From: Paracoccus sediminicola
GTDB taxonomy: Bacteria; Pseudomonadota; Alphaproteobacteria; Rhodobacterales; Rhodobacteraceae
NCBI RefSeq assembly: GCF_027912835.1
Contig: NZ_CP115770.1
Span: forward strand, 1-64,000
DNA: 64,000 nucleotides
Direction: 5' to 3'
In this document: positions 2,340 to 54,337 of the stretch, piece after piece
Numbering within the stretch: the first letter of the stretch is position 1
How the letters are laid out: the number at the start of each line of letters is the position of its first letter
Program-made: the position numbers and the translations under genes
The notes under the pieces: model-generated
Database searches by the model: none
Told to the model about the DNA's origin: nothing
The model's input: the letters and a program-made list of their open reading frames with translations, nothing else

Positions 2340-2577
2340 CCCAGGCCACACAGAGCAACACGAGCAGAGGAGAAAAGCGAAGACCCGAAAGAAAAGAGCC
2401 CCCCAAAGTTTCCCCTGGAGAGCCCTCATCATCTGATTAGCATCTTTGATGTAGCAACCTCCAGCATACCGGTCAAGAGTCACCGATTCGGTGGACTGAT
2501 ATTTTTTGCCTTTTTCCGCGAAAATTCGAGGAAAGAGACGGGGAAGTTGTGGGCCGAACGGTCGTCGTGAACAAGCC
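2340..2577. other. repB-repC intergenic region, expected site of the antisense ctRNA
   Basis: No gene is seen in this 238-bp gap. In repABC plasmids this interval encodes a small counter-transcribed RNA on the opposite strand that limits repC expression and sets copy number. A short hairpin CACCGA/TCGGTG (2481-2493) is followed by T-rich sequence just before repC, and the region has AT-rich patches. The ctRNA itself is inferred from family knowledge; I could not fix its promoter or terminator. Confidence 0.45.
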
Positions 2578-5048: not shown

Positions 5049-5340
5049 TTTGCCGATCTTCCATGTTTGCAAAGTAATTGAAAAATAAACACATTTCGTA
5101 CTTTCAAGCAAGGTTTTGCCGATATGCGTTGCCGATCTTGCCTGCCGATCTGGAATTGCTGCATGAAATCAATGGCTTCGGCAGAAGGGCCGGGCTTTTC
5201 GGTTTTGTTGTGTGCCCAAAGGGGCCGGAAAAAGAGAAAGTGTTCTTCGGGTTTTGTGACTGACGGATGAGGGCCTTTGGGGTCCCTCAGATGGGTCCGG
5301 GCCGGGTTCCGGTCTGTCTTTCCTGATGAAGGGCATTCCG

Positions 5341-12383: not shown

Positions 12384-12398
12384 GAAAGCGGGCTTTTT
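12384..12398 (+). repeat. Intercistronic stem-loop repeat, copy 3
   Basis: GAAAGCGGGCTTTTTG lies just before the helicase gene leader. It has the clearest T-run of the family and could act as a weak terminator. Confidence 0.55.
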
Positions 12399-12438
12399 GT
12401 CCTTTGGAACTCAGACCCTGATCCAAAGGAAAATCCCC

Positions 12439-22263: not shown

Positions 22264-22488
22264 ATGACCAAGAAAAATCAACATGTTGTGCCTCATGCGA
22301 GCGGATGGGCTGTCAGGGGTGAAGGTAACGGGCGCGCCACCTCAGTTCACGGCACGCAGCGTGAGGCGATCAGCGCGGCACGTGAAGTCGCGATCCGGCA
22401 AGGCAGCGAAATGCTGATCCATGGCGAGAACGGCCGCATTCGTGAACGCAACACATATGGCAAGGACCCTTATCCGCCGAAAGGCTGA
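22264..22488 (+). CDS. DUF2188 protein leading the CBASS operon
   Basis: A 74-residue basic protein with the typical DUF2188 layout: KKNQHVVPHASGWAVRGEGN, ATSVHGTQREAISAAREVA and IHGENGRIRERNTYG. Its stop overlaps the capV start by one base (TGATG), so it is cotranslated with the phospholipase gene. Function is unknown. Its position as first gene of the operon raises the possibility of a chaperone, inhibitor or DNA-binding accessory for CBASS. Confidence 0.8.
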   Translation: MTKKNQHVVPHASGWAVRGEGNGRATSVHGTQREAISAAREVAIRQGSEMLIHGENGRIRERNTYGKDPYPPKG

Positions 22489-23540
22489 TGGGCAAAAGCG
22501 GGATGGACGTTCGGATGAGCAGCCGCGAGAGTAACAGGCAAATACGGCGTATCCTCTCCATCGATGGTGGCGGGATCAAGGGCACAATGCCTGCTGCCTT
22601 CCTCGCGGGACTCGAGGAAGACTTGGGCGAGCCCATCGGGCGCTATTTTGATCTGATCGCCGGCACGTCGACCGGTGGCATCATCGCACTGGGCCTGGGC
22701 CTCGGTCGCACCGCAAAAGAGCTGCTGGAGCTTTACGAGCGTCGCGGGCCTGTCATCTTCGGCCAAGACAATGCGGATGTTGAGGTGCCGGGCTGGATGC
22801 GGAGGGCTTGGCGCACCCTCACCGCTACAGGCCGACACGCTGTCGGACCAAAGCACGATGCGGCAATTCTTGCCCGGGAGCTGAGGGCCGTCGTGAACGA
22901 CGATCTGATCGGGCAATCACAGACCCGGTTGGTGATCCCGGCATGGGATGCCGATCTCCGAAGCCCCTATATTTACAAGACCGCGCATCACACACGCCTG
23001 CAAACGGATTATCGCAAGACTGCGCTGGATGCCGCTCTGGCCACGGCGGCCGCGCCCACGTATTTCAAGCGGCATCGCACGGTCGATGACATCGGCCTGA
23101 CCGATGGTGGAACTTGGGCCAACAACCCCACGGCCATTGCCGTCGTCGAAGCCATCACCCTTCTGGGGTGGCATCCGTCAGACCTCCGCATTTTGAGCCT
23201 GGGTTGCTTGGATGAGGTCTACATGCTGCCCGAAAGCCCGGGTTTTGCAGGGCTCGGCCTCAAAGTCCTCAACCTCTACGCGGATGGGCAATCACACGGC
23301 GCCCTCGGCATGGCAAAGCTCCTGACGGGTCACCCTTACGACGGGGATCGCATCTACCGCGTCTCGCCGTCCGTCCCGAGTGGGTTTTTCACTTTGGACG
23401 ACACCACGAAGATCGGCCGCCTCAAGGGCCTCGGCATGTCGGAAGCCCGAAAGGCGAAGCCCCACCTGACCCCGATCTTCTTTACAAAACCCGCCGATGC
23501 CTTCGTGCCGGTCCATCAACTCAAGGAGGACGCGGCATGA
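22488..23540 (+). CDS. capV: CapV-type patatin phospholipase, CBASS effector
   Basis: A 350-residue patatin-like phospholipase. It shows the oxyanion loop DGGGIKGTMPA, the nucleophile elbow GTSTGG (Ser61) and the catalytic LTDGG aspartate. In CBASS, CapV is switched on by a cyclic dinucleotide made by the neighbouring CD-NTase and degrades membrane phospholipids, killing the infected cell. The stop overlaps the CD-NTase start (ATGA). All catalytic residues are present, so the effector looks active. The cyclic-nucleotide ligand cannot be told from sequence alone. Confidence 0.9.
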   Translation: MGKSGMDVRMSSRESNRQIRRILSIDGGGIKGTMPAAFLAGLEEDLGEPIGRYFDLIAGTSTGGIIALGLGLGRTAKELLELYERRGPVIFGQDNADVEVPGWMRRAWRTLTATGRHAVGPKHDAAILARELRAVVNDDLIGQSQTRLVIPAWDADLRSPYIYKTAHHTRLQTDYRKTALDAALATAAAPTYFKRHRTVDDIGLTDGGTWANNPTAIAVVEAITLLGWHPSDLRILSLGCLDEVYMLPESPGFAGLGLKVLNLYADGQSHGALGMAKLLTGHPYDGDRIYRVSPSVPSGFFTLDDTTKIGRLKGLGMSEARKAKPHLTPIFFTKPADAFVPVHQLKEDAA

Positions 23541-24739
23541 ACCAGATGTTGCGACAGCCGCTGACCGACAACGATATTCGTCGGCGCACGCAGATATTCA
23601 CTATATTGGACGAGATTGGCGAAGATCTGGATCTCACTGAAACCCAGTTTGATCGTGCCCGCCAGAGCTATGGTGCGGTTGGGGACTGGTTGTCGGGATC
23701 GACCGATCCGCTGCTTGTCAGCGTCATGGTCTACCTTCACGGGTCCAGCGCGCTCGGAACGGCCGTGAAACCGATCGGGCGCCGGGAATTCGATGTCGAT
23801 CTGATATGCTTCTGTGCAGGTATCGCGTCCAGCATCTCCCCGGAGGTCCTGAAGGCGGCGGTTGGCAACCGGTTGAAGGAACACGCGACCTACGTGCGGC
23901 TTCTCGAAGAAAAGAAGCGCTGCTGGCGTCTCAACTATGCGGGGGATTTCCACCTCGACCTGTCCCCGACCATCGCGAACCCGGCCTGCTTCAACCGGGG
24001 TGAACTGGTGCCCGACCGAGCTTTGAAGGCGTGGCATCCGACAAACCCGCGGGCCTACAAGACCCTGTTCGATGAGCGTGCTGCACTTCGCCCCACCTTT
24101 GCCGGCAAGCTTGTCGCCATGCAGCGGGATGAGGCGACGGTAGAGCCGTTCCCCGTTAGAGAAGCAGTGAAGGGCATCCTTCGCCGCATCGTCCAATTGC
24201 TCAAACGGCACCGGGACGTTTTCTATGAAGACAGCACGGAAGACGTCGCCCCGATTTCGATCATCATCACCACGCTCGCGATGCAGGCTTATGCGTATTG
24301 CGTGCGGCGGCATGTCTTCGAGGACGAGATGGATGTGGTGGTCGAAACGATCCGGATGATGCCGCACTTCATCGAGCGCCCCATTCTGGACGGACAACAG
24401 AGCTATGCCATCCTGAACGAGACAACCGATGGGGAAAATTTCGCGGACAACTGGAACAAGGATGCGCGGTGCGCTTCGGCATTCTACGCGTGGCACGCAC
24501 AAGCCTTTTCTGACTTCGAGGCTCTTCGTGATGCGGTTGGTCAGGACCGTTTGTCTTTGAACATGGAGCGTTCGTTCGGCCCCGGTGTCACCGGACGGGT
24601 TCTCGGAAAACGCATCAATGCGGTGTCGGATGGCCGCAAATCAGGCCTGCTTTCCGTCGCACCGCTGATCGGGTTGACGACATCACAGGTCGCCGCATCA
24701 ACGGCCGTTCCCGCCAACACGTTCTTCGGCGACCAATGA
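23537..24739 (+). CDS. CD-NTase (cGAS/DncV-like cyclic nucleotide synthase)
   Basis: A 400-residue nucleotidyltransferase of the CBASS synthase group. It has the GSSALGT motif (about 76-82), the metal-binding FDVDL pair about 15 residues later, and a third acidic site in FHLDLSPT (about 140). The usual role is to make a cyclic oligonucleotide after phage infection, which then triggers CapV. It overlaps both neighbours by four bases, so the operon is tightly coupled. The exact clade and product (for example cGAMP) need a phylogeny. Confidence 0.9.
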   Translation: MNQMLRQPLTDNDIRRRTQIFTILDEIGEDLDLTETQFDRARQSYGAVGDWLSGSTDPLLVSVMVYLHGSSALGTAVKPIGRREFDVDLICFCAGIASSISPEVLKAAVGNRLKEHATYVRLLEEKKRCWRLNYAGDFHLDLSPTIANPACFNRGELVPDRALKAWHPTNPRAYKTLFDERAALRPTFAGKLVAMQRDEATVEPFPVREAVKGILRRIVQLLKRHRDVFYEDSTEDVAPISIIITTLAMQAYAYCVRRHVFEDEMDVVVETIRMMPHFIERPILDGQQSYAILNETTDGENFADNWNKDARCASAFYAWHAQAFSDFEALRDAVGQDRLSLNMERSFGPGVTGRVLGKRINAVSDGRKSGLLSVAPLIGLTTSQVAASTAVPANTFFGDQ

Positions 24740-25233
24740 AGAGATCCGGCCGAAATCAGGACCTGACCCTGTCACAGCAACTGCTGTTTCTGAAGGCCAA
24801 CCCGGCAATCGGAGGTGGGGGAACGGTCCGCACAAACAAGCTGACATGGCAAGTGCCCATACAGCCGACCGCCTTGGCGCGCTCCTATCTTGCCACCGTC
24901 ACGTATCGACCGGGTCAAACGCCCGACGTTCAGATAGACGATCCGGACCTTGAACTGCTCGCAGACGGGCGACCTTTGCCTCATGTTTACAGGGATCCGC
25001 TTCGTCTTTGCCTCTATCTTCCGGGAACACGTGAGTGGGAGGCACGAAAGCGGATCGACCAGACAGTCATTCCGTGGACCTACCTCTGGCTCTACTATTT
25101 CGAGGACTGGCTTTGGTCTGACGACTGGAAAGGTGAAGGACGACACCCCGGTGACGAACCAGTACCTGCTGGAAACCGGGCGCTGCGCAGGGCGGTGGCC
25201 CGACCCTCAAGGGTGATTTCTGTCCCTCGTTGA
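24736..25233 (+). CDS. E2-like CBASS accessory protein
   Basis: A 165-residue E2 ubiquitin-conjugating-like protein of short type II CBASS. Family marks are LPHVYRDPLRLCLYLPG with a candidate catalytic Cys92, REWEARKRIDQTVIPWTYLWLYYFEDWLW and KGEGRHPG. Known E2-only CBASS proteins act on the C-terminus of the CD-NTase and prime it. No E1-like Cap2 or JAB-type Cap3 gene is present. About 25 residues follow HPG (Arg/Ala/Pro-rich), more than I expect; the tail may be recent read-through. It is the last gene of the operon. Confidence 0.82.
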   Translation: MKRSGRNQDLTLSQQLLFLKANPAIGGGGTVRTNKLTWQVPIQPTALARSYLATVTYRPGQTPDVQIDDPDLELLADGRPLPHVYRDPLRLCLYLPGTREWEARKRIDQTVIPWTYLWLYYFEDWLWSDDWKGEGRHPGDEPVPAGNRALRRAVARPSRVISVPR

Positions 25234-28284: not shown

Positions 28285-28878
28285 ATGTCGCGCTCAAAAC
28301 GTCTCTCAGATGCGGAACGCATGGAGATCGTTCGCGAAGCTGCGGAAGGTGTGACCACATCGGCCCTGGCGGAGCGGTTCGGCGTGTCGCCGCGGGCGAT
28401 CCAATACACCTTGAAGGCAGATGCCGAGCGCCAGACGGATGCCGCAATTCCGGTCTCAGCGGTCAGTGTAAAGGTCACGGCTGCGGAGCTCGCGGCACTC
28501 GACGAGGTGCTGGCCGAGGCCGGGATCGAGAGCCGTGCCGAGGGGCTGCGGCGGCTCATTCAGGCGGCAGGCGGGGTGTTCGTTCCGGACGCGCAGATGG
28601 CGGCCGAGATGGCGCGCTACCGCGCCTCGCTGCATGAGGTCGGCAATGGGGTCGCGCAAATTGCCAAGCAGATGACGCGGGCCAACCGGCGGGAGCAGGG
28701 GGCCGTGGGGGGCGCGAGTGCCGAGTTTACCGAATTGCGCCTTGCGCAGATGCGCGGGCTGGCGAGGTTCATTCTGGATTCTGCAGACGAGATCGATCTG
28801 CTCCTGCGCCGCCGTCGAGACGCGATGCAGCTGCGGGCCACGGCCGCGCTGAGGGAGTTTGCCCATGCGGCTGAATGA
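28285..28878 (+). CDS. MobC/VirD1-like relaxosome accessory protein
   Basis: A 197-residue DNA-binding protein. The N-terminus is a helix-turn-helix (LSDAERMEIVREAAEG, TSALAERFGVSPRAIQYTL). The central part (VKVTAAELAALDEVLAEAGIESRAEGLRRLIQAAGG) resembles the ribbon-helix-helix-type core of MobC proteins, and HEVGNGVAQIAKQMTRANRR is the usual MobC-like helix. It would open or mark oriT for the relaxase. It overlaps the relaxase gene by 14 bp, confirming they form one unit. Confidence 0.8.
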   Translation: MSRSKRLSDAERMEIVREAAEGVTTSALAERFGVSPRAIQYTLKADAERQTDAAIPVSAVSVKVTAAELAALDEVLAEAGIESRAEGLRRLIQAAGGVFVPDAQMAAEMARYRASLHEVGNGVAQIAKQMTRANRREQGAVGGASAEFTELRLAQMRGLARFILDSADEIDLLLRRRRDAMQLRATAALREFAHAAE

Positions 28879-31201
28879 TGCCGTCCATGCCGTCACGGGC
28901 GAGGTCTTTCGGGATGGCTGGAGCCGCGTCCGGGGCTCGATGCAGGGGCTGCATGTCGCCAAGCAGACCCAGCTTACGCGCGCGGCAGCGGGGCATCGGC
29001 CAGCGGTCTTCAAGGCGATCCGGGGCGGGGGTACGCATACCAAATCACAGCTCGCAAACCAGCTCGATTACCTCACCACCAAGTCCACCCATATCGTGGA
29101 CAGCAGTGGGTTTCTGGACGGCAAGGCGAAGCTCGAGGCCGGTGACATCAAGGACCTGACCGAGCGCTTTGCCAAACGGTGGGATGCGGGCTTCAAGCCC
29201 AAGCTCGGACAGACCACCCATATGCTCATGTCGTTCCCCATCGGCACGCGCGGCGAGGATGTGCGCGACATTGCGACGGACGTGGCCGAGCGGTTCTTCC
29301 AGACCGACGCGGGGCATTTCGACTACATTATCGCGGTGCATGAGGACCGCGATCACCCGCATGCGCATTTAGTGCTGAACCGCCGTTCGCAGGAAGGCGA
29401 GTTCTTCTTTCTGGGGCGCAACCATCGCTTCAACTATGATGATTTTCGCCTCGCCATGGTCGAGGAGGCGGAAAAGTATGGTGTGCGCCTGGAAGCCACG
29501 CGGCGGGTGGATCGCGGGGCTGTACATTACCCAGCCCCTACCCGCGAGGTCTACGCCGCGAAAGACGAGGGCCGCGCGCCCCGCGAGCGGGAACGCGTTG
29601 GGACCGACCTAGCCCGGACGCTGGCGGAGATCGCCAACACCAGAACCGTCTACCATTCGCTTGCCACGGAGGCCTCCCGCGAGGCCCGCGAGGATATTGC
29701 CGCGGCGCTATTTCGCGCGGGCGAGGTGCTGGCGCATGGCGGGCAGGTGGACCGAACAGGAGATGTGTATATGGCCGAGGATCAAAGTTTCGAGGACCTG
29801 AGAAGCCTCTATGCGGAGAAGCTCGCGCGGGTCCAGGGCATGATCGCCGAAAAATCTGACGCGGAACGTCCCGTGCTGGAAAAGCGCCTCATCGAGATCC
29901 AGACGCAGGTCCAGCACATGCAGCCCTTGGGGCTGCGATCATCCACGCTGTCAGAGACCCCCTCGGAGGGCGGGATCTATTCCGAAGCCAATATCGACGC
30001 CAGCCAGCGCGAGCGACTGGGGGAGCCCGACCTGAGATCGCGCATTGACGCGGCACTACGGGGCACCGGGATCAGCACATCGGAAGTGGTGGCCCGGATC
30101 GAGACGGGCGCGTCAAATGCAGCGCTCGAGCATCAATGGATCGCCAATGATCTCTCCAAAGTGGCCGAGGCGCGGAACCTGAACCTCGAGCGCCGCGCCG
30201 ATCTGGAACAGGCGCGCGACATTCTCAACGATGTGCATGTCGCGCTTGGCACGCTTCTGGAACGGGAAAACGTGCTGCGCCGGGATGGTGTCATGGAAGC
30301 GGAACCGGTCAGCGAGCAGTTCCATTATCATGAGGGCGCAGTCCGGGCGATGGAAGGGACAATCCGTCAGGAAATGCGCGCAGACGGCCTCACCGCGCAG
30401 CAGATCGAGGATCGGGACTGGGAGGTTGTCTCACGGGCGGAGCGCCGGATCGAGACGGAGCAACGCGCGTATCTCGAAGCACACCCAGACCTGCTCGCAC
30501 GCCCAGGCGATGTGATCGACCGGTCTGAACCCTACAGGGAGATCATCACCGATGCGGCCCGCGCCAGCGAGATCACCCGCGAGGTCGACCGGATCATGGA
30601 GGGACGCGACCTCCGCACGCCTGTTGCGGATGCTGTCGCGGATGACTTGCGCGCGCGCTATCCGGACATGCCGTCCCACCTCGCCCGTGGGCTCGGCGCG
30701 ACCTATGCCGCTGTCGTCGAGATACGGGACACGGACGCCATTAATCAGGTCCGCCGCGAAACCGAGTTACGCGACGGGATTGGGGTTGGCACACGCGACG
30801 AAGCTTTCGCAGCCCGCGATGAAACGGCGATGCGGTCTGATGAACGTGCCGACCGTCTTGCAGAGGAGATTGTGCGTGTCCTGGACCATGAGCGGGCCGG
30901 GGAGCTGTCCGCGCCCTTCGAGACCGAGGCGGAGCGGGACGCTTTCCGCGGCGAGATCGCGCGGGTGTTGGATGACCGCCAACTGGGCCGGCTCACATCC
31001 GGCGATGCCGATGCGCTGGACAAGGTTCTCGAGGACCGTCTCGACCGGCTCTATGTCGCCAAGGTCTACCTGCAATCCAATGCGGCGACGGCCAACACCG
31101 AGGCCTTGCGCCAGGTGGTCGATGAACTTGCCGACGCCGAGTATGAAAAACACCGCACTACAGACGTGGATGGCGAGAGCGAGCGGGGACAGGTCCATTG
31201 A
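28865..31201 (+). CDS. virD2: VirD2-like MOBP relaxase
   Basis: A 778-residue relaxase that would nick oriT and pilot the strand into the recipient. The N-terminal catalytic domain holds the three-histidine metal motif HEDRDHPHAHLVLN (about 158-171), typical of MOBP/VirD2 relaxases; the candidate nicking tyrosine lies in LANQLDYLTTK near residue 67. The long C-terminus (300-778) is acidic, helical and full of Arg/Glu repeats, as in large alphaproteobacterial relaxases. The ATG at 28865 lies inside the mobC end; a TTG at 28859 is possible. The coupling-protein gene overlaps its stop. Confidence 0.88.
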   Translation: MRLNDAVHAVTGEVFRDGWSRVRGSMQGLHVAKQTQLTRAAAGHRPAVFKAIRGGGTHTKSQLANQLDYLTTKSTHIVDSSGFLDGKAKLEAGDIKDLTERFAKRWDAGFKPKLGQTTHMLMSFPIGTRGEDVRDIATDVAERFFQTDAGHFDYIIAVHEDRDHPHAHLVLNRRSQEGEFFFLGRNHRFNYDDFRLAMVEEAEKYGVRLEATRRVDRGAVHYPAPTREVYAAKDEGRAPRERERVGTDLARTLAEIANTRTVYHSLATEASREAREDIAAALFRAGEVLAHGGQVDRTGDVYMAEDQSFEDLRSLYAEKLARVQGMIAEKSDAERPVLEKRLIEIQTQVQHMQPLGLRSSTLSETPSEGGIYSEANIDASQRERLGEPDLRSRIDAALRGTGISTSEVVARIETGASNAALEHQWIANDLSKVAEARNLNLERRADLEQARDILNDVHVALGTLLERENVLRRDGVMEAEPVSEQFHYHEGAVRAMEGTIRQEMRADGLTAQQIEDRDWEVVSRAERRIETEQRAYLEAHPDLLARPGDVIDRSEPYREIITDAARASEITREVDRIMEGRDLRTPVADAVADDLRARYPDMPSHLARGLGATYAAVVEIRDTDAINQVRRETELRDGIGVGTRDEAFAARDETAMRSDERADRLAEEIVRVLDHERAGELSAPFETEAERDAFRGEIARVLDDRQLGRLTSGDADALDKVLEDRLDRLYVAKVYLQSNAATANTEALRQVVDELADAEYEKHRTTDVDGESERGQVH

Positions 31202-33204
31202 GCGCCTCCATGGGAAAAGCGCGGATCGCGACCGGTGTGCTTCTCGTCACGCTGGTGACCGGGGCCATGGGCTATACCATCGCCTCGGCGGTGCTGACCT
31301 ACCAGGATCTCGGCTTCGGGGCCGAGATCGACTTTGCCTATATCGCGCAGAACTATCTGGCGATCCTGGACCGCCGCCCGGAGGACGCGCAACTTATTCA
31401 CCTGATCATCGGCAGCTTCGCTGCCGCCGGCCTCATGCTGAGCCTCGCCCTCTCGGGGTCCGCCCTGACACGCTTTGGCCAGACCCATTGGCAGAGTGCG
31501 CGCGAGATGAAGGCCAACGGGTTTTTCGGCGCGCCCGGCACCGGCTTCATCCTCGGCAAGCTCGGTTCCCCGAAGTCCCGCGCCAAGTACATCTGCTCCA
31601 AGGTCTTCCCGCATGCGCTGATCGTGGCGCCGACGGGCCGGGGCAAGACCTCCGGGTTCGTCATTCCGAACCTGCTGACCTGGCAAGGCTCCGCCGTGAC
31701 GCTCGATGTGAAGGGGGAGTGTTTCGAGGCCACGGCCCGCCACCGTGCGGCCCAAGGCGACAAGGTCTATCGCTTTGCCCCCACCGATTGGGAGGGAAAG
31801 CGCACGCATCGCTACAACCCGCTCCTGCGTATCTTTGAGCTGAAAGATCCCGCGCGCCAGCAGATGGAACTGCAGCTCCTGGCGACGCTCTTCCTGCAAA
31901 GCGACAATGACCGGGTGCAGGGCCTCCTCAAAGGCGGGATCGATCTCTTTGTGGCGGCAGGACTGCTGGCCTTCCAGCGCAAGCGCCCCACCTTGGGCGA
32001 GATCTACCGCATCGCGGCCTCCGGAGGGAACAAGCAGAAGGAGTATTTCGCGCGGGGGCATGAGGTCGATAACAGGGCCGCCAAGCTGATCTTCACGCGG
32101 CTCGCCTCGACCAACAACGACACGCTGACCTCTTACGTCTCGCTCCTGATGACCTCGGGGCTCGATCAATGGCAGAACCCGGCCATCGATGAAGCGACGG
32201 CAGTCTCGGACTTTGATTTCCGGACGATCCGCAAGAAGCCCTTTTCAGTCTATCTCGTGGTCCAGCCGCTGATGGTGAAACCGCTCGCGCCGCTGATCCG
32301 CCTCTTCTTCTCCGATCTTCTTTCCGCCATGCAGGAAAAAGACCCCGGCCCCGACGAGCCCTGGCCGGTGATGATCATGCTCGATGAGTTCAATCGCTTG
32401 GGCAAAATGCCCATCGTGGTCGAGAGCATCGAGACCCTGCGGACCTATCGTGGTCATCTGGCAGTGGTCACCCAAACCATCCCCGCCCTCGATGAAATCT
32501 ATGGCGAGAACACCCGCCGCGCCTTGCAGGGGAATGCGGGCGTGAAGCTCTACCTGACGCCCTCCGATGAAAAGACCGTCGAAGAGTTGAGCAAGGCTGT
32601 CGGCAAGACCACGAAGACCGTGGTCACGCGGTCTCAGTCCATCGGCAAGAACCCCTTCGAAGGGCGCAGCCAGTCGACCCGGACCGAAGAAAGTTCGTTG
32701 CTCCCCGAAGACGAGGCCCGCCGCCTGCCGCTCGACGAGATCGTCATGGTCATCGATGCGCAAATGCCTGTCCGGGCAAAACGGATCCAGTACTTCGACG
32801 ACCGACTCTTCAAAGCGATCCACGCGGCACAGTCGGGCGAGTTGCCGTTTCCGGAGCCGGGGGGAGGGGGGCCGCAGGGCACTCTGCCGCTAAGTGTGCG
32901 CGCCATGCCGATGAGGCCGCCACCGGACGGGTCAGGCGGATCTGAGGCCGACGTTGAGGCCGCACGCCAGGCTGCTGATGGCCAATCTTCAGTGCAAACC
33001 GATGTCGCCACAAAGAAGACAGCACCCGTCGTTCAAGCTGTCGTCGCAGAGGAACAGCGGCAGATGGAGATGGATTTTGAGGGCCAGGTTGCGGATTCCG
33101 ACACAGTGGATGATGAGGCGCAGATGCGCTCTGCAGTCGATGGCTTGAACGACATGGAAGCGATGCTGCAGGAGGAGGGTGGCAAAAAGCCAATTCACCG
33201 GTAG
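31198..33204 (+). CDS. virD4: VirD4/TraG-type coupling protein
   Basis: A 668-residue conjugative ATPase that links the relaxosome to the VirB channel in the inner membrane. Two N-terminal transmembrane segments (about 9-35 and 62-83) precede the Walker A APTGRGKTSGF (about 145) and Walker B IMLDEFNRLGKMP (about 393). The C-terminus (about 550-668) is low-complexity and acidic. The start is TTG at 31198, overlapping the relaxase stop; the ATG at 31210 is the alternative. It is the last gene of the mob operon; the VirB genes lie 23 kb away on the other strand. Confidence 0.9.
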   Translation: MSASMGKARIATGVLLVTLVTGAMGYTIASAVLTYQDLGFGAEIDFAYIAQNYLAILDRRPEDAQLIHLIIGSFAAAGLMLSLALSGSALTRFGQTHWQSAREMKANGFFGAPGTGFILGKLGSPKSRAKYICSKVFPHALIVAPTGRGKTSGFVIPNLLTWQGSAVTLDVKGECFEATARHRAAQGDKVYRFAPTDWEGKRTHRYNPLLRIFELKDPARQQMELQLLATLFLQSDNDRVQGLLKGGIDLFVAAGLLAFQRKRPTLGEIYRIAASGGNKQKEYFARGHEVDNRAAKLIFTRLASTNNDTLTSYVSLLMTSGLDQWQNPAIDEATAVSDFDFRTIRKKPFSVYLVVQPLMVKPLAPLIRLFFSDLLSAMQEKDPGPDEPWPVMIMLDEFNRLGKMPIVVESIETLRTYRGHLAVVTQTIPALDEIYGENTRRALQGNAGVKLYLTPSDEKTVEELSKAVGKTTKTVVTRSQSIGKNPFEGRSQSTRTEESSLLPEDEARRLPLDEIVMVIDAQMPVRAKRIQYFDDRLFKAIHAAQSGELPFPEPGGGGPQGTLPLSVRAMPMRPPPDGSGGSEADVEAARQAADGQSSVQTDVATKKTAPVVQAVVAEEQRQMEMDFEGQVADSDTVDDEAQMRSAVDGLNDMEAMLQEEGGKKPIHR

Positions 33205-33325
33205 GGCGGTGGGCATGGTCTGACGGTCATAGAGGGCGGGAAGCGGAAGTTCGCTGCGGGTGCATCACTGATGGTTCTGCGCTACACAAGCAGACTTTGG
33301 ATTGAGTGGACCCTGGCGCGAGTCG

Positions 33326-34549
33326 CTACAGTGGCAATTGCTTTAACGCGGAAACAAGCGTGAGCCGAGGCACACCCTCATCTGAAGTGATATCCGTTTC
33401 GCCGGAGTGGACTACCAACCTTTGTGTTGCTCCAACTGCATTGCATCCAATCGCAAAACCTTTTTTCGCCTTCGCATCTGAATTCACCTTAATCTCGATT
33501 GCGTAGATCGCGTCGCTCGAACACCTCAGGACGAGGTCGATCTCGTTTTTCTCGTTGTCTCGATAGAACGCAGGCGTCGCATTACCATTTGAAGCATTGA
33601 CGATCGCCTCGACTGCGAAGCTCTCCCAACTGTGTCCAAGTGCGTGGTGCCTCGAAAGCTGTTCCGTTGACCGAATGCCAAGAGCAGCGTGCAGCAAACC
33701 ACAGTCTCTGACGTAGAAAACCGGCATGGAGTTGAGACTCTGATTGCTTCCGGCTGGCCAGTTCGGCAAGCGACGTATGAGGCCTGTCCTTTCAAGTAGG
33801 TTTAGTGATTTTCTGATACTCTCTCTCTTCACAGAAAGGTTCTTTGCACAATTCGCATCGTCAAATTGCTCGCCGTTGGTGTTGGCGACATACTGAAAGA
33901 CATCAGGGAGACGATCACTTGCATCGATGCCCCAACAGTCCAGATCTTGATTGAGCAGAGAAGCAAGGTAATTCAATCTCCAGTTGAAGCTTTGCTCGTC
34001 GCTATCTGCATATAGACTCTCGGGAAGTCCACCGCGTAGCCAAAGGGCTTCTTTGCTCCACACGGGCGCATTGATGGATTGGGCTTGAGGGGCCGTGGTG
34101 CTCGACGGACCCTGAGTAGTCATCAGCGGTTTGCTATCGTTTAAATGTTCTATGACTTGGATCGGCGTAAGCTCCAAGTCTGTCATTATCCCAATCAGTA
34201 AACTATTAAGCATTTGATCTGTCTTTGCATTTCGGCCCACTAGAATGAACCTGGGCGCGGAACGCTGGTGTTCGGTGCATGAGCGGATAATCGATTCTAC
34301 TTTTGGTACTTGCGCCCCATCTATTGCGTCGACACACAGGACTTTCCCGCTGAATGCAGTGTGGATTTCTTGATGCGTCATGCAAACAAGCTGCTCCCCC
34401 GACATCACTGCTGAACCATCGTCCATTTCGGCGGCCAGAGCTGACAACAGAGAGGTTCGTCCAGCCCTCGGAAGAGCTCGAAGAAGAACGACCCCGCTAT
34501 GAAGCAGTTTTGACCGTAGCGTGTTCTGAGAGGCTCGAGCAATCACCAC
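33326..34549 (-). CDS. DUF4143 protein with defective P-loop
   Basis: A 407-residue protein of the AAA/DUF4143 group. At the place of Walker A it has LPRAGRTSLL (about 26-35), where the P-loop lysine is replaced by Arg31, and the ATPase part is short. The middle (about 165-250) has the DUF4143 mark EALWLRGGLPESLYADSD. A C-terminal PD-(D/E)XK-like nuclease fold is suggested by NEIDLVLRCSSDAIYAIEIKVN. The start is GTG, two bases after the stop of the NACHT/nuclease gene, so it belongs to the same operon. Base composition is visibly more AT-rich than flanking conjugation genes, suggesting transfer. Function with its partner is unknown; defence is inferred. Confidence 0.72.
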   Translation of the reverse strand: MVIARASQNTLRSKLLHSGVVLLRALPRAGRTSLLSALAAEMDDGSAVMSGEQLVCMTHQEIHTAFSGKVLCVDAIDGAQVPKVESIIRSCTEHQRSAPRFILVGRNAKTDQMLNSLLIGIMTDLELTPIQVIEHLNDSKPLMTTQGPSSTTAPQAQSINAPVWSKEALWLRGGLPESLYADSDEQSFNWRLNYLASLLNQDLDCWGIDASDRLPDVFQYVANTNGEQFDDANCAKNLSVKRESIRKSLNLLERTGLIRRLPNWPAGSNQSLNSMPVFYVRDCGLLHAALGIRSTEQLSRHHALGHSWESFAVEAIVNASNGNATPAFYRDNEKNEIDLVLRCSSDAIYAIEIKVNSDAKAKKGFAIGCNAVGATQRLVVHSGETDITSDEGVPRLTLVSALKQLPL

Positions 34550-34551
34550 GC

Positions 34552-37500
34552 CTAGGGCCTCGTCACGTCCATTACGAAGACTTCAACGTCGCCTTTCTTG
34601 GCCACGACGCTGTTTTCGATGAGAGCAAGTCTAAGCTCTTCTGCAGAAGCTGGGGGTTTCGCGCCACCGGTCGGTGATTTTGGCTTCTTGTTTTGCGGGA
34701 CTTCGGGGCCAAACCAAAACACAAGGTAAATACCTTTGCGCTCAGCACGCCAATCGTTGCTGTATAACCTGTCGAGTTGTGTGTCCGCGGCGTGCCAGAG
34801 GTCCTTGTGCCATTGCCCCTTGACTTCAATGGGTAACATCAGCCGTTTAATTGTGCACCGTATGTCTGCGCGCTTGTCATCGGCGAGATGGCCTTCTGGC
34901 TCACAGAGAATTCCGTACGGATAGTCCCCAAGCATCTTCAAGAGAGTGTCTCGGCAGTCTTCTTCGTCCTTGGGAACGTCGTCCATAAAAAAGTCTTTGT
35001 ACCAATCAACTGGGTGGGACCGAACTTTGCGTTGTGCTTCAAGTAACTCTTCCAGAACAACTGCTTGAAGTTGATCCATTGTTTGCGGTTGCCCATCGTT
35101 GAGCACTGACTCGAGATCGGCAAGTCTGGGAGGCACATAATTTTCTTCGACAACCTTTTGCGCCTGTTCTGCAAGGGTCCTCTTCAGGTAGTTTGTATAG
35201 CCATCCTCAGGTGCGTCACAAAGCGCGCGCAGTTCTTCAACTGCTTCGTCCGAAGTTAAGCCCCCAAGGCGATTAATCAGTGTACCCAGATAGTCTGCAG
35301 CGTCCCAAGGATTTGCGTCGCCCGTTGTCCCGCCACTGGGATGAGGCACGTTCGACCAAAGCTTTCGAAAGCATCGTATGATCCAAGAAAGCTGCGCGGC
35401 AGAAAGTGGTACCGGCTGACCTTCATCTCGGCGTCGACCGAAACGAGATCGCAAGTGCCAAAGGAAGTCGCGGTCATCACGCCGCGCGCCTAAAATCTCT
35501 TCTTGAACAGCTTCATAGTCGACAAATAATGCAACCGCGTCCCAGTCAGAGCGCCGTTCATTATCGTCGATATTGCTCGCTCTACGTTTGCCGACATATT
35601 GTTTCAAAAACCTGAAATCGCCAGCTGCTATGACACAGTCGATAAGCTCTGTTTCTGCTCGATGCGACATGTTCGGAAACCGTTCGAGCCATTCACATGC
35701 CAGGTTGGTCGCCATGTCATCGCCAGTCGTGCCACGGGCAATCTCATAGAGCCCATCAACGTGTCCCTTTTGGGCTTCCAACTGTGGTTCCACTCGCAAG
35801 CGCCAAAACTTCTCCCAAAGCCCTGGTCTGCTCTTGATTTCTCTCTCCACAACTTCAGAAACTTTGTCGATTTTGGCATGATCCAAAATATGGGTGAATC
35901 GAATTTCAAGAAGAACAGCGAGTAGCCTCTCGTCAGACAGATCATCAAAAGGCCTATTGTTGCGAACCCTCTCAGCAGCTGCAGCGACGAAAATATATGC
36001 GGCGTCCCAGCGCTTGCTTTCGGCGTAGGAAGTAGCAATTTCTTGCGCGGATGGCGTTGATCTTTCATTCGAAAGAAAAGCTTCGAAGCCTTCGAACGCA
36101 GCAGCTTGAAGTTCCTGGCCCAACCATTGCTCAATCCGTTCATGGGCGGGCACGTCGTCGCCCATGTCCGAGAAAAGGTTCAAGTACGCCTTAGCAGGAT
36201 TAACGACTTCGCCATATCGCCCGCCGCGAAGATCGTCGATGTGTTGGAGAAAGTTGGCTCGGTGCTCCGCCCAAGATTTCTGCTGTTTCTCGTTTCGTTT
36301 TCGGTCTCGATCTTCCTGTTCTATCTGCCAATCTGGAACCTGTGGGTTGGCTAGTTGTTGGAGGAAAGCCTGGCCATCTCTATCGATCGCGAAAGGAATG
36401 GCTGCTTTGCGCACGCTCTCTCCGCGTTCCTCATCGTGCGGGCATAAGCTTACGAGGTCCTTCCAGCGGTCTCCTTCGGCCTCGGCCAAAGGGTCAAGAC
36501 ACTCTAGAAGGGCAATGATATCGCCTTCATCTGGGTACAGCCCGTTGAGTCTGTCTCTGAGCCTCCAACCCCGCATCCAGACCGTCTTGGAGCCATCCTC
36601 TTCCAACAATGCAAAACGCTGAATTTTTCGTCTCGCATAAATGTTATTTTTCAGCCAGTTTGAGATTGCTTTCTGAGAATCGTCTCGAAAGCCACGATAT
36701 TCTCCAATAGACGATAGCCACTTCCATAGTTTAATCGGGTCGACATTACCCAAAGCCAAGCGTCTTTCGGTTAGCGCATAGACCACGTTGATGGCATCTG
36801 AGTTCTCGAAACGATCGAAGTTTTTGCCGAGCAGGGCACTGAGGTAGTCGGCCAAAATGTCGAGAACGGGTTCGATCCGTTCATCCGGAAGCCGTTTCTC
36901 TAAACCCCACAGCACCCCACCGATCCTATGTCGCGGTTTGTGAGGAAGTGCACACAGGCTGAGCCCGCTAAACGCTACGATTAACTCAACGATTTGGGTG
37001 TCCGTTGGACCTGCGAAGCTGATACCAGGAAGTAACTCCACCGCGAGTCGTAGCGAATTTTCATCCGCTAGACTGTGAAGATCTGCGAGCATCTGAGCCC
37101 AGTCAATCTCATCTTGTGACAAATCGGACAGTGCATCACCAGCTATTCGTCGTTCGTGGAACGTCACATTTGGATCAAGCACCATGTCTTTGAGGGTTCT
37201 AGAGAGCAAAGGCGCAACGGGGGACCCAAAAACCGAATGCAAGAGCATTGCTCTTAGAAAGAATGGCGTTGACCTAGATACAACTAAGTCTCTGATTTCT
37301 TTGTGAAGAGATGTCTTCGCAATACCTTTCAATGAGTGTGTCTTGTCAAAGTCATAGTACCTGGGGTCCCGGTCACCTAGGTCGAAGAGGGCTTCCAAAA
37401 GAGCACGCGACTGAGAATCCGAAAAGTCATCAGTGTCGCTATACTCCACCACTCCCATTGGATCGGCAGCAATAACATGCGTGGCCAGGCGAGCGTCTTG

Positions 37501-38556
37501 GGCAAGCCATGCGTGCACACCTCTCAGACTAGCGGGAACAAGCCCATATCCATGAAACAGCTTAAGCAGGCGTCGTCGTTTTCTGTCAGTTTCCGCCTTT
37601 TGCGCAAGCCAACGAGCCGCGAGGAACTCGCCAACGCTCCTGTGCGTGTAGCTGAACCTATCTGGGTCGCCCTCAACGTTGCTTGTGAGCAACCGACTGC
37701 CTAGGACCGCATCAAGAGCTTGCCGTGATGCCAGCATACCCACTTCCGTCAAAGAAAGATCATCTTGGTCCATCGCCGGAACAGGTGATCTGGAAACTGC
37801 TCTCTTGCCAGTTAGAATGAGAGAAGAAAATGCAGCCCCAGCAGCATCAAGAGCTTCGTTTTCACTTAACCTGGATAGCGAGGCATTCGGCTTTTGTTGA
37901 CTGTGCTCGGCCCACAAATTCGCCACTGCAAGTCGGAACAGCGCCGCTTTCGAGGTGGGCAGTTCTTCACTGTTTGCGACCGCTCTAATCAACTTCAGCG
38001 TTTGAGGGTTGCCAAACAGCCCTTCAAGACCGTTTTCCTCAAAGTGGGCGAGAACAGCCTCGGCGCGGTCACCTTCCATATCCTTCGACAACAGACTACG
38101 GGCATCGTCTCTAGAGATTGGTTCCAGAAATAGCTCCAGTGGATCATTGCCATAGGCGTCCCCCATAGCTTGTACGCTCGTGGCGCTTCTCCAATCAGCC
38201 ACTCGGCATGAAAGAATGAAGTTGGGAAACCCTGATTCTTCTAGAGAAGCTAGGACAGCATCGACAGCATCTCCTTCAGCTTGAACCGCTAATTCATCTA
38301 ATGCGTCAATGACGAAGGTAGTCGCGTCACCCAAGAGACTTAAGGGATTGGTCGATCGGATCAGGCGTCTTGCGTGAACAAATTTGTAGCCAGCCTCTTG
38401 TCCGATTTCTTCTAGTAGTGTCGTCTTTCCCATTCCAGCATCGCCCAAAACGACGATGGGTTTCTTCCGGCCTAGAAGGTCAGCTTGGGGCAGCTCAAAT
38501 ATTTTGCCATCGGCGTCAACGCCGCTCAGTCGCCTCGCAATGATGGTGTCAGTCAT
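34552..38556 (-). CDS. NACHT/STAND-like NTPase with C-terminal nuclease-like domain
   Basis: A 1334-residue protein. The NTPase is right at the N-terminus: Walker A VLGDAGMGKTT (about 36-46), Walker B TFVIDALDELA (80-90) and sensor-like ILSCRVADWR (about 114). A long helical-repeat body follows (about 300-1200), as in STAND sensors. The C-terminus has ADIRC ... LPIEVKGQWHKDLWHAADTQ (about 1230-1258), which fits a PD-(D/E)XK nuclease core (Asp, then ExK). Known antiviral STAND proteins mostly carry the effector at the N-terminus, so this order is less common. It is cotranscribed with the DUF4143 gene. AT-rich composition differs from neighbours. A phage-sensing, DNA-cutting role is likely but inferred. 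Confidence 0.75.
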   Translation of the reverse strand: MTDTIIARRLSGVDADGKIFELPQADLLGRKKPIVVLGDAGMGKTTLLEEIGQEAGYKFVHARRLIRSTNPLSLLGDATTFVIDALDELAVQAEGDAVDAVLASLEESGFPNFILSCRVADWRSATSVQAMGDAYGNDPLELFLEPISRDDARSLLSKDMEGDRAEAVLAHFEENGLEGLFGNPQTLKLIRAVANSEELPTSKAALFRLAVANLWAEHSQQKPNASLSRLSENEALDAAGAAFSSLILTGKRAVSRSPVPAMDQDDLSLTEVGMLASRQALDAVLGSRLLTSNVEGDPDRFSYTHRSVGEFLAARWLAQKAETDRKRRRLLKLFHGYGLVPASLRGVHAWLAQDARLATHVIAADPMGVVEYSDTDDFSDSQSRALLEALFDLGDRDPRYYDFDKTHSLKGIAKTSLHKEIRDLVVSRSTPFFLRAMLLHSVFGSPVAPLLSRTLKDMVLDPNVTFHERRIAGDALSDLSQDEIDWAQMLADLHSLADENSLRLAVELLPGISFAGPTDTQIVELIVAFSGLSLCALPHKPRHRIGGVLWGLEKRLPDERIEPVLDILADYLSALLGKNFDRFENSDAINVVYALTERRLALGNVDPIKLWKWLSSIGEYRGFRDDSQKAISNWLKNNIYARRKIQRFALLEEDGSKTVWMRGWRLRDRLNGLYPDEGDIIALLECLDPLAEAEGDRWKDLVSLCPHDEERGESVRKAAIPFAIDRDGQAFLQQLANPQVPDWQIEQEDRDRKRNEKQQKSWAEHRANFLQHIDDLRGGRYGEVVNPAKAYLNLFSDMGDDVPAHERIEQWLGQELQAAAFEGFEAFLSNERSTPSAQEIATSYAESKRWDAAYIFVAAAAERVRNNRPFDDLSDERLLAVLLEIRFTHILDHAKIDKVSEVVEREIKSRPGLWEKFWRLRVEPQLEAQKGHVDGLYEIARGTTGDDMATNLACEWLERFPNMSHRAETELIDCVIAAGDFRFLKQYVGKRRASNIDDNERRSDWDAVALFVDYEAVQEEILGARRDDRDFLWHLRSRFGRRRDEGQPVPLSAAQLSWIIRCFRKLWSNVPHPSGGTTGDANPWDAADYLGTLINRLGGLTSDEAVEELRALCDAPEDGYTNYLKRTLAEQAQKVVEENYVPPRLADLESVLNDGQPQTMDQLQAVVLEELLEAQRKVRSHPVDWYKDFFMDDVPKDEEDCRDTLLKMLGDYPYGILCEPEGHLADDKRADIRCTIKRLMLPIEVKGQWHKDLWHAADTQLDRLYSNDWRAERKGIYLVFWFGPEVPQNKKPKSPTGGAKPPASAEELRLALIENSVVAKKGDVEVFVMDVTRP

Positions 38557-51455: not shown

Positions 51456-52535
51456 TCAAATTCCGATCCGCGCTTGCGCAGTAGCAGTCTTGTGCAGTTG
51501 CGAAGCAAACTCTGTTGTGGGCGCGGTCAGGTCTATCGTTCTAAACGAAATAGGGTGTCCTTGAATAACCAGGGTTTCGTCAACGCTGCCGCCAACTTGC
51601 GGATGGAGCAGAATTCCTTCCGAGGTCAGACTGGGAGGCTGCTCCATGTGTTCCTGTGTACGCAAATATGCATACATCTGGTATAGATACCCGCTTCGCA
51701 AGATTTCGTCCCTGTGGTTCGATCTGGTCAGAATTCGGGTGAACTTGGTGTCGATGACCACGTGACGTTCGGTTTCGGGATGGGTCAGTTCGATGTCGGT
51801 CTGCATGCCAGGAAGGATCGCGGACAGGCCTGGGGTTGTGCCGGACACAGGCCAAGCGAGGCGTCGCCCCTGGGCAATGGACCACCCCTCTGGCTTCAGG
51901 GCTATACGGAGCGCATTGCCGATGGCGCGTTCGAAGAGACGGCGGATCAGGTGCTCGGTCGTCTCATCACCGGGCTGTAGCGAGGCCCCTTTGGTTTCGG
52001 TCGGTATCGTCCCATCGAAGACCATCCGGGCAAGTGCCACCATCATTCTGTCCGCATTCTCGTTCCTGCCTATCTGGTCGGTCGCCAGTTCGGCGCGAGA
52101 GGGCCTGCGCGCCGAGACGCCCGCGCGCGCGAAATCCGCCGCGAGGCTGCGACAACGATGTCCGGTCTCCCGGGCGGAGACTCGGGCAGAGAGACGTTCA
52201 AGCGCAGCGCGAACCAGCCTGTTTCGCGGCGTGTCCATGACATGCTCTTCGAACCGGCAGGCGATCTGACCGCGCTCCATGAGCTGGCCCGCCTCTGTCG
52301 CCAGCATGTCGATGCGACCGCGTACACGCGGCAGAACTGCTGTCCGCGCCTGGTAGCCACGGCTCAGGTTGCGGTGAAGTCGATCTTCGACCACGTGGGC
52401 CATCAGGCGGCCGATGAGATCCGGCAAGTCCTGGGCCTGCTCGACATCGCGCTCGAATCGACCCTGGAGTTGAACGAGATCCGCGGCATAGAGAAACAAG
52501 ATCCAGATGTTGCGAAGCGGAATCTCGGAGGCCAT
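51456..52535 (-). CDS. mcrC: McrC-type nuclease subunit
   Basis: A 359-residue McrC protein, the nuclease part of a modification-dependent restriction enzyme. It opens IPLRNIWILFLYAADL, typical of McrC, and the PD-(D/E)XK core is MQTDIELTH ... HVVIDTKFTRIL with QMYAYLRTQE following. Its ATG shares a base with the mcrB stop (TGATG). With McrB it should cut DNA carrying modified cytosine, for example from phages. Confidence 0.88.
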   Translation of the reverse strand: MASEIPLRNIWILFLYAADLVQLQGRFERDVEQAQDLPDLIGRLMAHVVEDRLHRNLSRGYQARTAVLPRVRGRIDMLATEAGQLMERGQIACRFEEHVMDTPRNRLVRAALERLSARVSARETGHRCRSLAADFARAGVSARRPSRAELATDQIGRNENADRMMVALARMVFDGTIPTETKGASLQPGDETTEHLIRRLFERAIGNALRIALKPEGWSIAQGRRLAWPVSGTTPGLSAILPGMQTDIELTHPETERHVVIDTKFTRILTRSNHRDEILRSGYLYQMYAYLRTQEHMEQPPSLTSEGILLHPQVGGSVDETLVIQGHPISFRTIDLTAPTTEFASQLHKTATAQARIGI

Positions 52536-54337
52536 CAGAGCCCGTCGCGCAGCCGCGCCTTTGCTTCGGCAGCCCTCTCGGGCGCATCAAACCAGTATTC
52601 GTCGAGCAGCGGTCCGATCTCCGTTTCTATCACGTCGTTGAACCAGCCCTTCGGATCGGCCAGCGGCTCGGTTGGCGTGATGTAGGAGTGGCCGACGCGG
52701 AACTGCTGACCTAGAGTCCTGTCGCCGGATATCTCGTCGTTCAGCGCCGTCATGCGCGCCCGGATCAGATCCACCATGTCGCTGTCGAGCCCGCGATCCG
52801 CGCACCATGCGGCCCAGGAATCGTTCAGCATGGGCTCGAGCGAGATGAAGGCGAAGCGCCGCCGAAGCGCCAGATCTACGAGTGCCAGCGAGCGGTCGGC
52901 CACGTTCATCGTACCGATGATGTAGAGATTGTCCGGGACATGCACGCGCTCGCCTGGCTGTTTTCGGTAGGCGAGCTCGATCGCGTCAGCGCGGCTGCGC
53001 TTGGTGTTCTCGAGTAGTGTCAGCATCTCGCCGAAGACCTGAGCCGGGTTGCCGCGATTGATCTCCTCGATGATGAGTAAATGCGCGATGTCGGGCTGGG
53101 CGCGGGCGGCCTCCACCACCTGCAGGAACACACCGTCGGTGATCACAAGACCCGCTGAGCTGGGCCGATAGCCTCGCACGAAATCCTCGTAAGAGAGCGA
53201 CGGATGGAACTGGACCGAGCGCAGTTGCTCGGGCTTCGGCGTGCGTCGCCCGATCAGCGCCTTTGCCAGGCGCTTCGCGAGCCAAGTTTTGCCGGTGCCT
53301 GGCGCACCCTGAAGGATCAGGTTCTTCTTATCCTCCAAGCGTGCAATCAGTTTCGCGAGCGCGCCACGCGACAAGAACCCGCCCTCGGCAATGATGTCGT
53401 CGATGCCATAGGGCTCGATCGGAGGCGCATCTGTCTCGCCGTCCGCCTGCTCCTCCTCCTCGATCAGGGTGAGGGGTTCGAGGTCCTCGGCGTACTTTTC
53501 GGCCCAGTAGGGATGCGCCAGGAACCGTGCCAGGTCCTGGTTTTCTCCGTCGAAGGCGAATGCCACCAGTTGCCTCGCCATGTCGTCGTCCTCAAAGCGC
53601 GCCCTGGCGACAGTCGTGCGGTAGGTATAAAAGAACCACTCGCGTGGCGGGTCGACTTCTTCCCAGGCGACATCGACAGTCTTCCCGTCCCCCGGATTGC
53701 CAGTAATCGTGCCAATCGCCTTGATGCGCATGGCGCTGACCGGTCGCCCTCGGTTCTCGAACGGCACATCGTTCTTGCGCGTGTAAGTCGCCTTGATCGC
53801 GATCCGGTCGCCCTGCTTCATCTGTTTCACGAGATGTGAGAACTTGTCGTCATAGCCATTCTGCCAGATGCCTTCACCAAGGAAGCGTGGGGTCTGGTCG
53901 CCTTCGTCCCATGCTGCACCGACGAACCAGTAGTTGATGCCTTCCGGGACGATATCGCCCTCCGGTGCCTGGTCTTCGTCTTCATCAGCCTTGAGTGCTG
54001 CATGCTCTTGTCTGAAGATCTCGACGGCGAGGTCATCCGTCATTTCGATGGAACCACCCGCATCGGTCAGGGCCCAAATGCCGCGCTTCGGGGAATAGAG
54101 GTAGCCGGCCTTAACAAGGTAGAACCGTGCCCAGGCAACCCGATTGTTGAACTTCGGCTGCCCGTTTTTGTTGGTCTGGTTCAGGAAGTCGTCCGGTACT
54201 TCATGTCGCTGCGCGATTTCTTGGAAGACCTGTTTCGGGCGCGCCCGCCCCCCAAGATCGCGCAAGACCTCAAGGACCGGCGCGAAGTAGCTGACGAACT
54301 GCGGAACGCCTTCAATTTTCTGCTCGAAAAGTTTCAC
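52535..54337 (-). CDS. mcrB: McrB-type AAA+ GTPase with N-terminal EVE-like domain
   Basis: A 600-residue motor of the McrBC system. Residues 1-95 form a winged-helix Mrr N-terminal-like domain; about 135-245 (YWFVGAAWDEGDQTPRFLG...) resembles an EVE/PUA-like domain that could read modified bases. The AAA+ core has Walker A GAPGTGKT (344-351), IIEEINRGNPAQVFGE and the McrB GTP signature GTMNVADRSLALVD. It is encoded before mcrC and is the first gene of the pair. Confidence 0.9.
   Translation of the reverse strand: MKLFEQKIEGVPQFVSYFAPVLEVLRDLGGRARPKQVFQEIAQRHEVPDDFLNQTNKNGQPKFNNRVAWARFYLVKAGYLYSPKRGIWALTDAGGSIEMTDDLAVEIFRQEHAALKADEDEDQAPEGDIVPEGINYWFVGAAWDEGDQTPRFLGEGIWQNGYDDKFSHLVKQMKQGDRIAIKATYTRKNDVPFENRGRPVSAMRIKAIGTITGNPGDGKTVDVAWEEVDPPREWFFYTYRTTVARARFEDDDMARQLVAFAFDGENQDLARFLAHPYWAEKYAEDLEPLTLIEEEEQADGETDAPPIEPYGIDDIIAEGGFLSRGALAKLIARLEDKKNLILQGAPGTGKTWLAKRLAKALIGRRTPKPEQLRSVQFHPSLSYEDFVRGYRPSSAGLVITDGVFLQVVEAARAQPDIAHLLIIEEINRGNPAQVFGEMLTLLENTKRSRADAIELAYRKQPGERVHVPDNLYIIGTMNVADRSLALVDLALRRRFAFISLEPMLNDSWAAWCADRGLDSDMVDLIRARMTALNDEISGDRTLGQQFRVGHSYITPTEPLADPKGWFNDVIETEIGPLLDEYWFDAPERAAEAKARLRDGL

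Follow-up and report, generated by a model that had tools for sequence, protein, structure and literature searches.

A plasmid-borne EruA-type STAND protein with a predicted C-terminal nuclease and a DUF4143 partner of degenerate P-loop in Paracoccus sediminicola

Introduction

Among the described bacterial proteins of the STAND type, the Avs1-4 effectors are nucleases, and in the portion of the source consulted (PMC12931631) the effector of STAND proteins is placed at the N-terminus and the sensor at the C-terminus. In plants, the consulted portion of PMC9528088 describes receptor pairs of the nucleotide-binding leucine-rich repeat (NLR) type, viz. RGA4/RGA5 and RRS1/RPS4, in which the sensor holds down an autoactive helper, whose P-loop is the only one required. 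The present work concerns a two-gene locus (positions 33326-38556) within the first 64,000 nucleotides of contig NZ_CP115770.1 of Paracoccus sediminicola (GCF_027912835.1), and this whole stretch is referred to below as the window. The locus consists of a gene for a large protein of the NCBIfam family EruA and of a smaller co-oriented gene for a DUF4143 protein, and it is rather likely that it represents an EruA STAND nuclease gene with a dedicated accessory subunit, which is nuclease-like and dead as an ATPase. This reading builds on NTPase motifs, a C-terminal nuclease fold, the fold of the partner and its loss of ATPase motifs, recurrent adjacency and joint inheritance, as they are seen in sequences and structure models. 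The main features of the locus are as follows.

34552-38556, minus strand: eruA-type gene, a 1334-residue STAND/NACHT-type NTPase with a C-terminal PD-(D/E)xK nuclease, predicted (open reading frame with ATG start; NCBIfam NF058535)
38419-38445, minus strand: Walker A motif GDAGMGKTT, residues 38-46 of EruA (sequence and conservation)
38290-38313, minus strand: Walker B motif VIDALDEL, residues 82-89 of EruA (sequence and conservation)
34708-34965, minus strand: predicted EruA nuclease core, residues 1198-1283, with E1198, E1221, D1231, E1244-x-K1246, Q1260 and Y1265 (conservation, AlphaFold2 model, fold search)
34550-34551, minus strand: 2 bp gap between the co-oriented genes (open reading frame coordinates)
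33326-34549, minus strand: partner gene, a 407-residue DUF4143 protein with a predicted degenerate STAND ATPase, winged helix and PD-(D/E)xK-like domain (open reading frame with GTG start; Pfam, PADLOC, model)
34454-34477, minus strand: degenerate P-loop ALPRAGRT of the partner, residues 25-32, in which R31 replaces the lysine of other DUF4143 ATPases (conservation)
33488-33544, minus strand: nuclease motif E336-x-D338 ... E352-x-K354 of the partner (conservation)

Family identity and NTPase of the large protein

The large protein is matched by the NCBIfam equivalog model NF058535 (antiphage_EruA) with 1321.3 bits, where the cut-off is 1000, and the match spans residues 8-1332 of the protein and 1-1318 of the profile. 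By its sequence, the protein is thus a member of a family already named, viz. the "NACHT domain-containing antiphage protein EruA". A previous reading of the locus, made from the DNA letters alone (the sequence-only reading), had proposed that the NTPase is undescribed, and this part of it has to be given up, since NF058535 covers the full length of the protein. A database search, in which 7992 candidates were scored, gave 395 homologues of the large protein, the best 120 of which were listed; the conservation alignment holds 120 relatives, the window's protein among them, and the counts given here are of alignment rows with letters at the position in question. The residues G43, K44, D84, D87 and E88 are invariant (118 of 118 rows), as is G41 (114 of 114), and the Walker A and Walker B motifs, which the sequence-only reading had placed at the N-terminus, are intact there. 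As the Walker A motif begins at residue 38, EruA has no space for an N-terminal effector. The Pfam matches of the P-loop region are all sub-threshold (NACHT, 19.9 vs a gathering value of 26.7; nSTAND_NTPase5, 19.5 vs 34), and precomputed matches to PF05729 or PF25199 are present on some of the homologues. PADLOC gave no convincing match (best 16.9 bits), and no PDB chain matched the EruA profile by sequence at E<=0.01.

Among the matches listed in a literature search there was no antiphage EruA or HyoA, and the one paper on an EruA dealt with an E. coli regulator that has nothing to do with this family; the publication from which the antiphage name derives was not found, and a term search of the DefensePredictor main text yielded neither "Eru" nor "Hyo". 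An EruB model placed beside EruA in NCBIfam was considered for the partner and rejected, as NF058536 is an unrelated acyltransferase, NF058534 is HyoA, and no EruB was hit by the partner. Two further observations on this family may be recorded. Three EruA-type clusters (P0022, P0028 and P0032) share a longest contig of 5152084, which suggests three paralogues in one genome, and one EruA-family gene over the cut-off (L038) carries one in-frame stop.

Predicted nuclease at the C-terminus of EruA

The pattern D..ExK, noted at the C-terminus from the letters alone, corresponds to D1231 and E1244-x-K1246. D1231 is found in 117 of 118 rows, with one E, while E1244, K1246, Q1260 and Y1265 are each kept in 117 of 117. 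Structure models were made of the EruA C-terminus and of the partner. In the AlphaFold2 model of the former (mean predicted local distance difference test score, pLDDT, 86.7), the elements follow the order alpha-beta-beta-beta-alpha-beta, with the D in strand 2 and the ExK in strand 3 of the predicted core, and the closest solved folds in a fold search were restriction enzymes. On the strength of this model, the effector of EruA is a predicted C-terminal PD-(D/E)xK nuclease. The structure-prediction check proposed by the sequence-only reading, for which the lack of a nuclease fold was named as the adverse outcome, has therefore shown such a fold, and its assignment of a STAND/NACHT-type NTPase with a C-terminal effector is supported, the NTPase by its motifs and the effector by the model.

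The DUF4143 partner and the state of its ATPase

The partner is matched by Pfam PF13635 (DUF4143) with E=3.9e-31 and 108.4 bits (cut-off 28.1) and by the PADLOC candidate PDC-S01 with 2e-46; its NCBIfam hits, winged-helix and other, are all sub-threshold, and there is no NCBIfam model for the partner itself. Its structure model (pLDDT 86.7; predicted template-modelling score, pTM, 0.85) shows a STAND ATPase, a winged helix and a nuclease-like domain. A fold search supports the STAND ATPase and winged-helix fold; for the C-terminal part, the strand order and the placement of the motif fit a nuclease core, and the search barely covered the residues beyond 306. The single match of the partner profile against the PDB was to a winged-helix entry (E=0.0077). 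At the position of the P-loop lysine, 36 of the 38 partner-clade rows with a residue have R (one S, one K), whereas outside the clade, in rows P0179-P0201, K is present in 22 of 23. The Walker-B glutamate is seen in 0 of 51 partner-clade rows, the window's partner reading VDAID. Due to this fixed change of Lys to Arg and the loss of the glutamate, the partner probably no longer hydrolyses ATP, as judged by its motifs, and for the same two residues it is classed as a relative of the AAA_14-DUF4143 ATPases and not as an ATPase. The nuclease residues of the clade are kept throughout (E336 and D338 in 58/58 rows, E352 and K354 in 57/57). The DUF4143 identity that the sequence-only reading gave to the partner is confirmed, and what had escaped that reading is the STAND-type ATPase fold with a conserved degenerate P-loop.

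An hhalign comparison of alignment A3 (the C-terminal first row together with full-length relatives) with alignment A2 did not align the nuclease domains of EruA and the partner, and matched instead the two P-loop domains with 25% probability. Many deposited partner proteins (P0135-P0159, of 366-374 residues) begin past the degenerate P-loop, and their starts are probably mis-annotated; in L002 the partner P-loop was found in frame upstream of the annotated start.

The conserved change in the P-loop bears on an alternative, which we regard as somewhat unlikely, that the partner is mainly a safety lock or regulator of an autoactive EruA, i.e. an immunity-type subunit or a winged-helix repressor, and that its nuclease motif serves for binding DNA and not for cutting it. 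The degenerate P-loop with its fixed Arg and weak winged-helix matches within residues 205-262 would suit such a role, and in the plant pairs RGA4/RGA5 and RRS1/RPS4 it is likewise the sensor that represses a helper whose P-loop alone is needed (PMC9528088, the portion consulted). However, the E-x-D...E-x-K motif is kept in all partner-clade rows with letters, which goes beyond the needs of a pure lock, and a lock of this kind is missing at most of the EruA-like loci read.

Recurrent linkage of DUF4143 genes with EruA-type genes

The arrangement of the window, a 1334-residue protein followed after 2 bp by a DUF4143 gene, agrees with the sequence-only reading, which did not state the strand (minus for both genes). 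The two genes lie directly side by side in this order in Sulfitobacter delicatus (L002; 64% and 54% identity) as well as in the window, and in Leisingera sp. ANG-M1 the eruA-type and DUF4143 genes have consecutive locus tags. For 21 of 57 partner-clade clusters, the longest contig is equal in size to that of one of 119 other listed EruA-type clusters, the corresponding number being 0 of 22 among rows P0179-P0201 and a mean of 0.155 (maximum 2) in a number-shift control; on very long contigs such a match indicates the same replicon only and not adjacency. The identity matrices of EruA and partner, compared over 22 pairs, are correlated with r=0.959, a value reached in 0 of 2000 permutations, and the correlation within the 16 closest pairs is 0.831. 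As a relation between sequences, this correlation shows joint inheritance and should not be interpreted as contact between the two proteins.

DUF4143 genes with an intact P-loop also occur beside EruA genes, downstream in L004 (genome G123) and upstream in L005, L039, L040 and the 5' fragment L048. In the upstream arrangement, the stop of the DUF4143 gene overlaps the presumed start of the EruA gene (ATGA or TTGA), in frame by the coordinates. In six genomes picked for having the pair, the DUF4143 genes over the Pfam cut-off number 1 (G000), 4 (G065), 1 (G123), 2 (G811), 1 (G1046) and 4 (G996), and in each of them one such gene is the neighbour of EruA. Among the 74 genomes of the family that G811 belongs to, both EruA matches reaching the profile start (L039 and L048) have a DUF4143 neighbour, and both were known from the phylum sample. 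It is thus supported by the gene orders read that DUF4143 genes are recurrently linked with EruA-type genes, in more than one order, and the neighbour search, for which the sequence-only reading had named a complete lack of co-occurrence as the adverse outcome, has found the link repeatedly.

This linkage has to be weighed against the possibility that EruA alone defends and that the DUF4143 gene is a passenger, DUF4143 ATPases being widespread, which we consider unlikely. The majority of EruA-like loci read have no DUF4143 neighbour, and plasmids often carry DUF4143 relatives of the partner (316 matching records), as a passenger would lead one to expect. However, adjacency recurs in more than one gene order, with the overlap of stop and start in the upstream arrangement; the two genes are inherited jointly, and the fixed change in the P-loop is specific to the partner clade; and DUF4143 genes are few in the six pair-holding genomes.

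Limits of the pairing and distribution

An adjacent DUF4143 gene is present at 4 of 24 full-length EruA-like loci in the sampled genomes (L004, L005, L039 and L040). This count leaves out the window's own L003/L032, L002 (which has the pair), L001/L010 (which end just past the gene), L038 (interrupted by an in-frame stop and lacking a DUF4143 hit) and the partial or distant loci L007-L009, L014-L018, L020-L022 and L048-L058, of which only L048 has a DUF4143 neighbour; within the count, one flank is short at L019, L041 and L045. The 8 unbroken over-cut-off loci of the phylum sample besides the window's (0/8) and the 7 plasmid loci read from 29 matching records (L023-L028 and L068; 0/7) have no such neighbour. 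A universal link with DUF4143 was rejected on account of these loci, and the strict two-component variant suggested by the sequence-only reading is not supported, the DUF4143 neighbour being present at no more than 4 of 24 sampled-genome loci and 0 of 7 plasmid loci. Since EruA stands alone in most hosts read, the DUF4143 gene is accessory. Its presence is also independent of the boundary of the EruA family, as loci over the cut-off are found both with the partner (L002, 1308 bits; L004, 1147 bits) and without it (L023 and L028). On a quick tree of 48 rows, the state of the partner has to change 4 times, a rough figure (quick method, one long branch, 16 contig-based labels), and the upstream and downstream arrangements lie in different parts of it.

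In a sample of 398 genomes from the phylum, 10, counting that of the window, have an EruA over the cut-off. In the family to which the window belongs, the large protein finds matches at E<=0.001 in 10 of 394 genomes, with a single close one (96%) besides the window's own. A phage-borne module was considered and rejected, as scans of viral contigs with the EruA protein and with A1 gave no relative. A scan with A2 gave two distant DUF4143 loci (L066 and L067), which were not scored for EruA, and among phage records there were two partial matches to EruA, the larger of which has no DUF4143 gene in 9.3 kb, its upstream side being cut by the contig end.

Plasmid setting and the virD4 cargo slot

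The pair is convergent with the conjugation genes for relaxase and VirD4, and meets the 3' end of virD4.

28859-33204, plus strand: relaxase and VirD4/TraG coupling protein (context; Pfam)

The GC content is 51.6-52.0% at 34-38 kb, compared with 64.5-64.8% on one side (26-32 kb) and 64.4-66.5% on the other (40-44 kb). A ParA/RepB/RepC plasmid cassette occupies 172-3633, and conjugation genes are found on either side of the locus. The same plasmid carries a CBASS cluster at 22488-25233 (plus strand), with a patatin-like phospholipase effector, a SMODS/DncV-like cyclase and an E2-type protein, and a McrBC-like pair at 51456-54337 (minus strand), consisting of a protein with Mrr_N and AAA_5 and a McrC-like McrBC-component protein. 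The description of the locus as AT-rich plasmid cargo near other defence genes is in agreement with these data.

The region at the virD4 3' end (33204-33326; L028, L059-L065) looks like a variable cargo slot of Rhodobacterales conjugative plasmids. In 8 records hand-picked from 20 listed, of at least 5000 matching virD4, the cargo 3' of virD4 comprises SMC/SbcCD genes with a WYL protein, an AAA ATPase, ABC-three-component genes, mercury resistance (two records), CBASS, and an ATP-dependent endonuclease with a UvrD-type helicase; in Phaeobacter inhibens pP72_b it is a distant EruA-family gene (~25% identity) without DUF4143. The slot is closed by the next conjugation gene, inside the stretch read, in five records, viz. 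those with the AAA ATPase, the ABC-three-component genes, both mercury resistances and the endonuclease-helicase. The location next to the virD4 and relaxase genes of a conjugative plasmid, and the recurrence of an EruA-family gene at the virD4 3' end in pP72_b, could suggest that the locus targets plasmids or conjugation and not phage. However, other plasmids fill the same slot with CBASS, ABC-three-component genes, an endonuclease and UvrD-type helicase or mercury resistance, relatives are spread over many of the genomes sampled, in some cases on very long and probably chromosomal contigs, and the family bears an antiphage name; we consider such a target very unlikely.

Outside the locus, a Fic/DOC-family protein (3846-5111, minus strand) adjoins the replication genes, and a very large helicase-like plasmid protein, which has domains of the strawberry-notch type and a stretch resembling a methyltransferase, is encoded at 12397-16701 (plus strand).

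Proposed mechanism

Returning to EruA with a dedicated DUF4143 subunit, we infer the following sequence of sensing, oligomerisation, DNA cutting and defence by this copy. The N-terminus of EruA would act as an ATP-dependent switch and its long middle region probably as the sensor; a phage signal would lead to ATP-dependent oligomerisation, the nuclease domains would thereby be gathered, and DNA would be cut, with an outcome that, by analogy with STAND proteins in general, may be abortive or direct defence. The likeliest role of the partner would be that of a stable subunit in contact with EruA, which restrains the resting complex and/or, upon activation, helps to bind DNA and provides a further nuclease site. 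A bolder version, which is possible and put forward only tentatively, is that the pair is a bacterial counterpart of paired NLRs, in which EruA and a STAND-derived pseudo-ATPase form a hetero-oligomer with two different PD-(D/E)xK sites, the ATPase of the partner was abandoned once EruA became the sole nucleotide switch, and the partnership was founded on more than one occasion with DUF4143 ATPases that were still intact, as in the upstream and downstream arrangements.

If EruA and the partner do act together, part of the widespread DUF4143 group would gain a function, a defence protein of the STAND type that carries its nuclease at the C-terminus would be teamed with a STAND-derived protein unable to burn ATP, and the locus would offer a compact and testable bacterial model of the division of sensing, restraint and killing in paired NLR-type receptors. 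A literature search gave nothing joining DUF4143 with NACHT or with an ATPase and nuclease, and in a looser search "DUF4143" was absent among the matches listed; within these searches, the partnership of EruA with a DUF4143 protein of fixed degenerate P-loop appears to be undescribed.

Comparison with known systems

With EruA (NF058535), the window's protein shares a full-length profile match, and it differs in having a dedicated DUF4143 partner gene 2 bp downstream. HyoA (NF058534) is matched weakly and in part only (104 bits, with residues 143-817 as the best stretch, far short of the cut-off of 1200), and the protein is not a member of that family. With Avs/AVAST it has in common a STAND NTPase, a large downstream region and a nuclease effector (PMC12931631, the portion consulted); however, EruA of the window opens with the NTPase and ends with the predicted nuclease, and the N-terminal effector of those systems is lacking. 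To the AAA_14-DUF4143 ATPases (PDC-S01) the partner is linked by its DUF4143 and PDC-S01 matches and by the E-x-D...E-x-K motif, whereas its clade is without the P-loop lysine and the Walker-B glutamate and is paired with EruA. Upx (PDB 9wuf) gives a weak match at the level of fold only. Lastly, with the plant paired NLRs the locus would share the idea of two STAND proteins, of which one P-loop is needed in some pairs (PMC9528088, in the portion consulted), but this is an analogy without homology, and the window's partner bears a nuclease-like domain.
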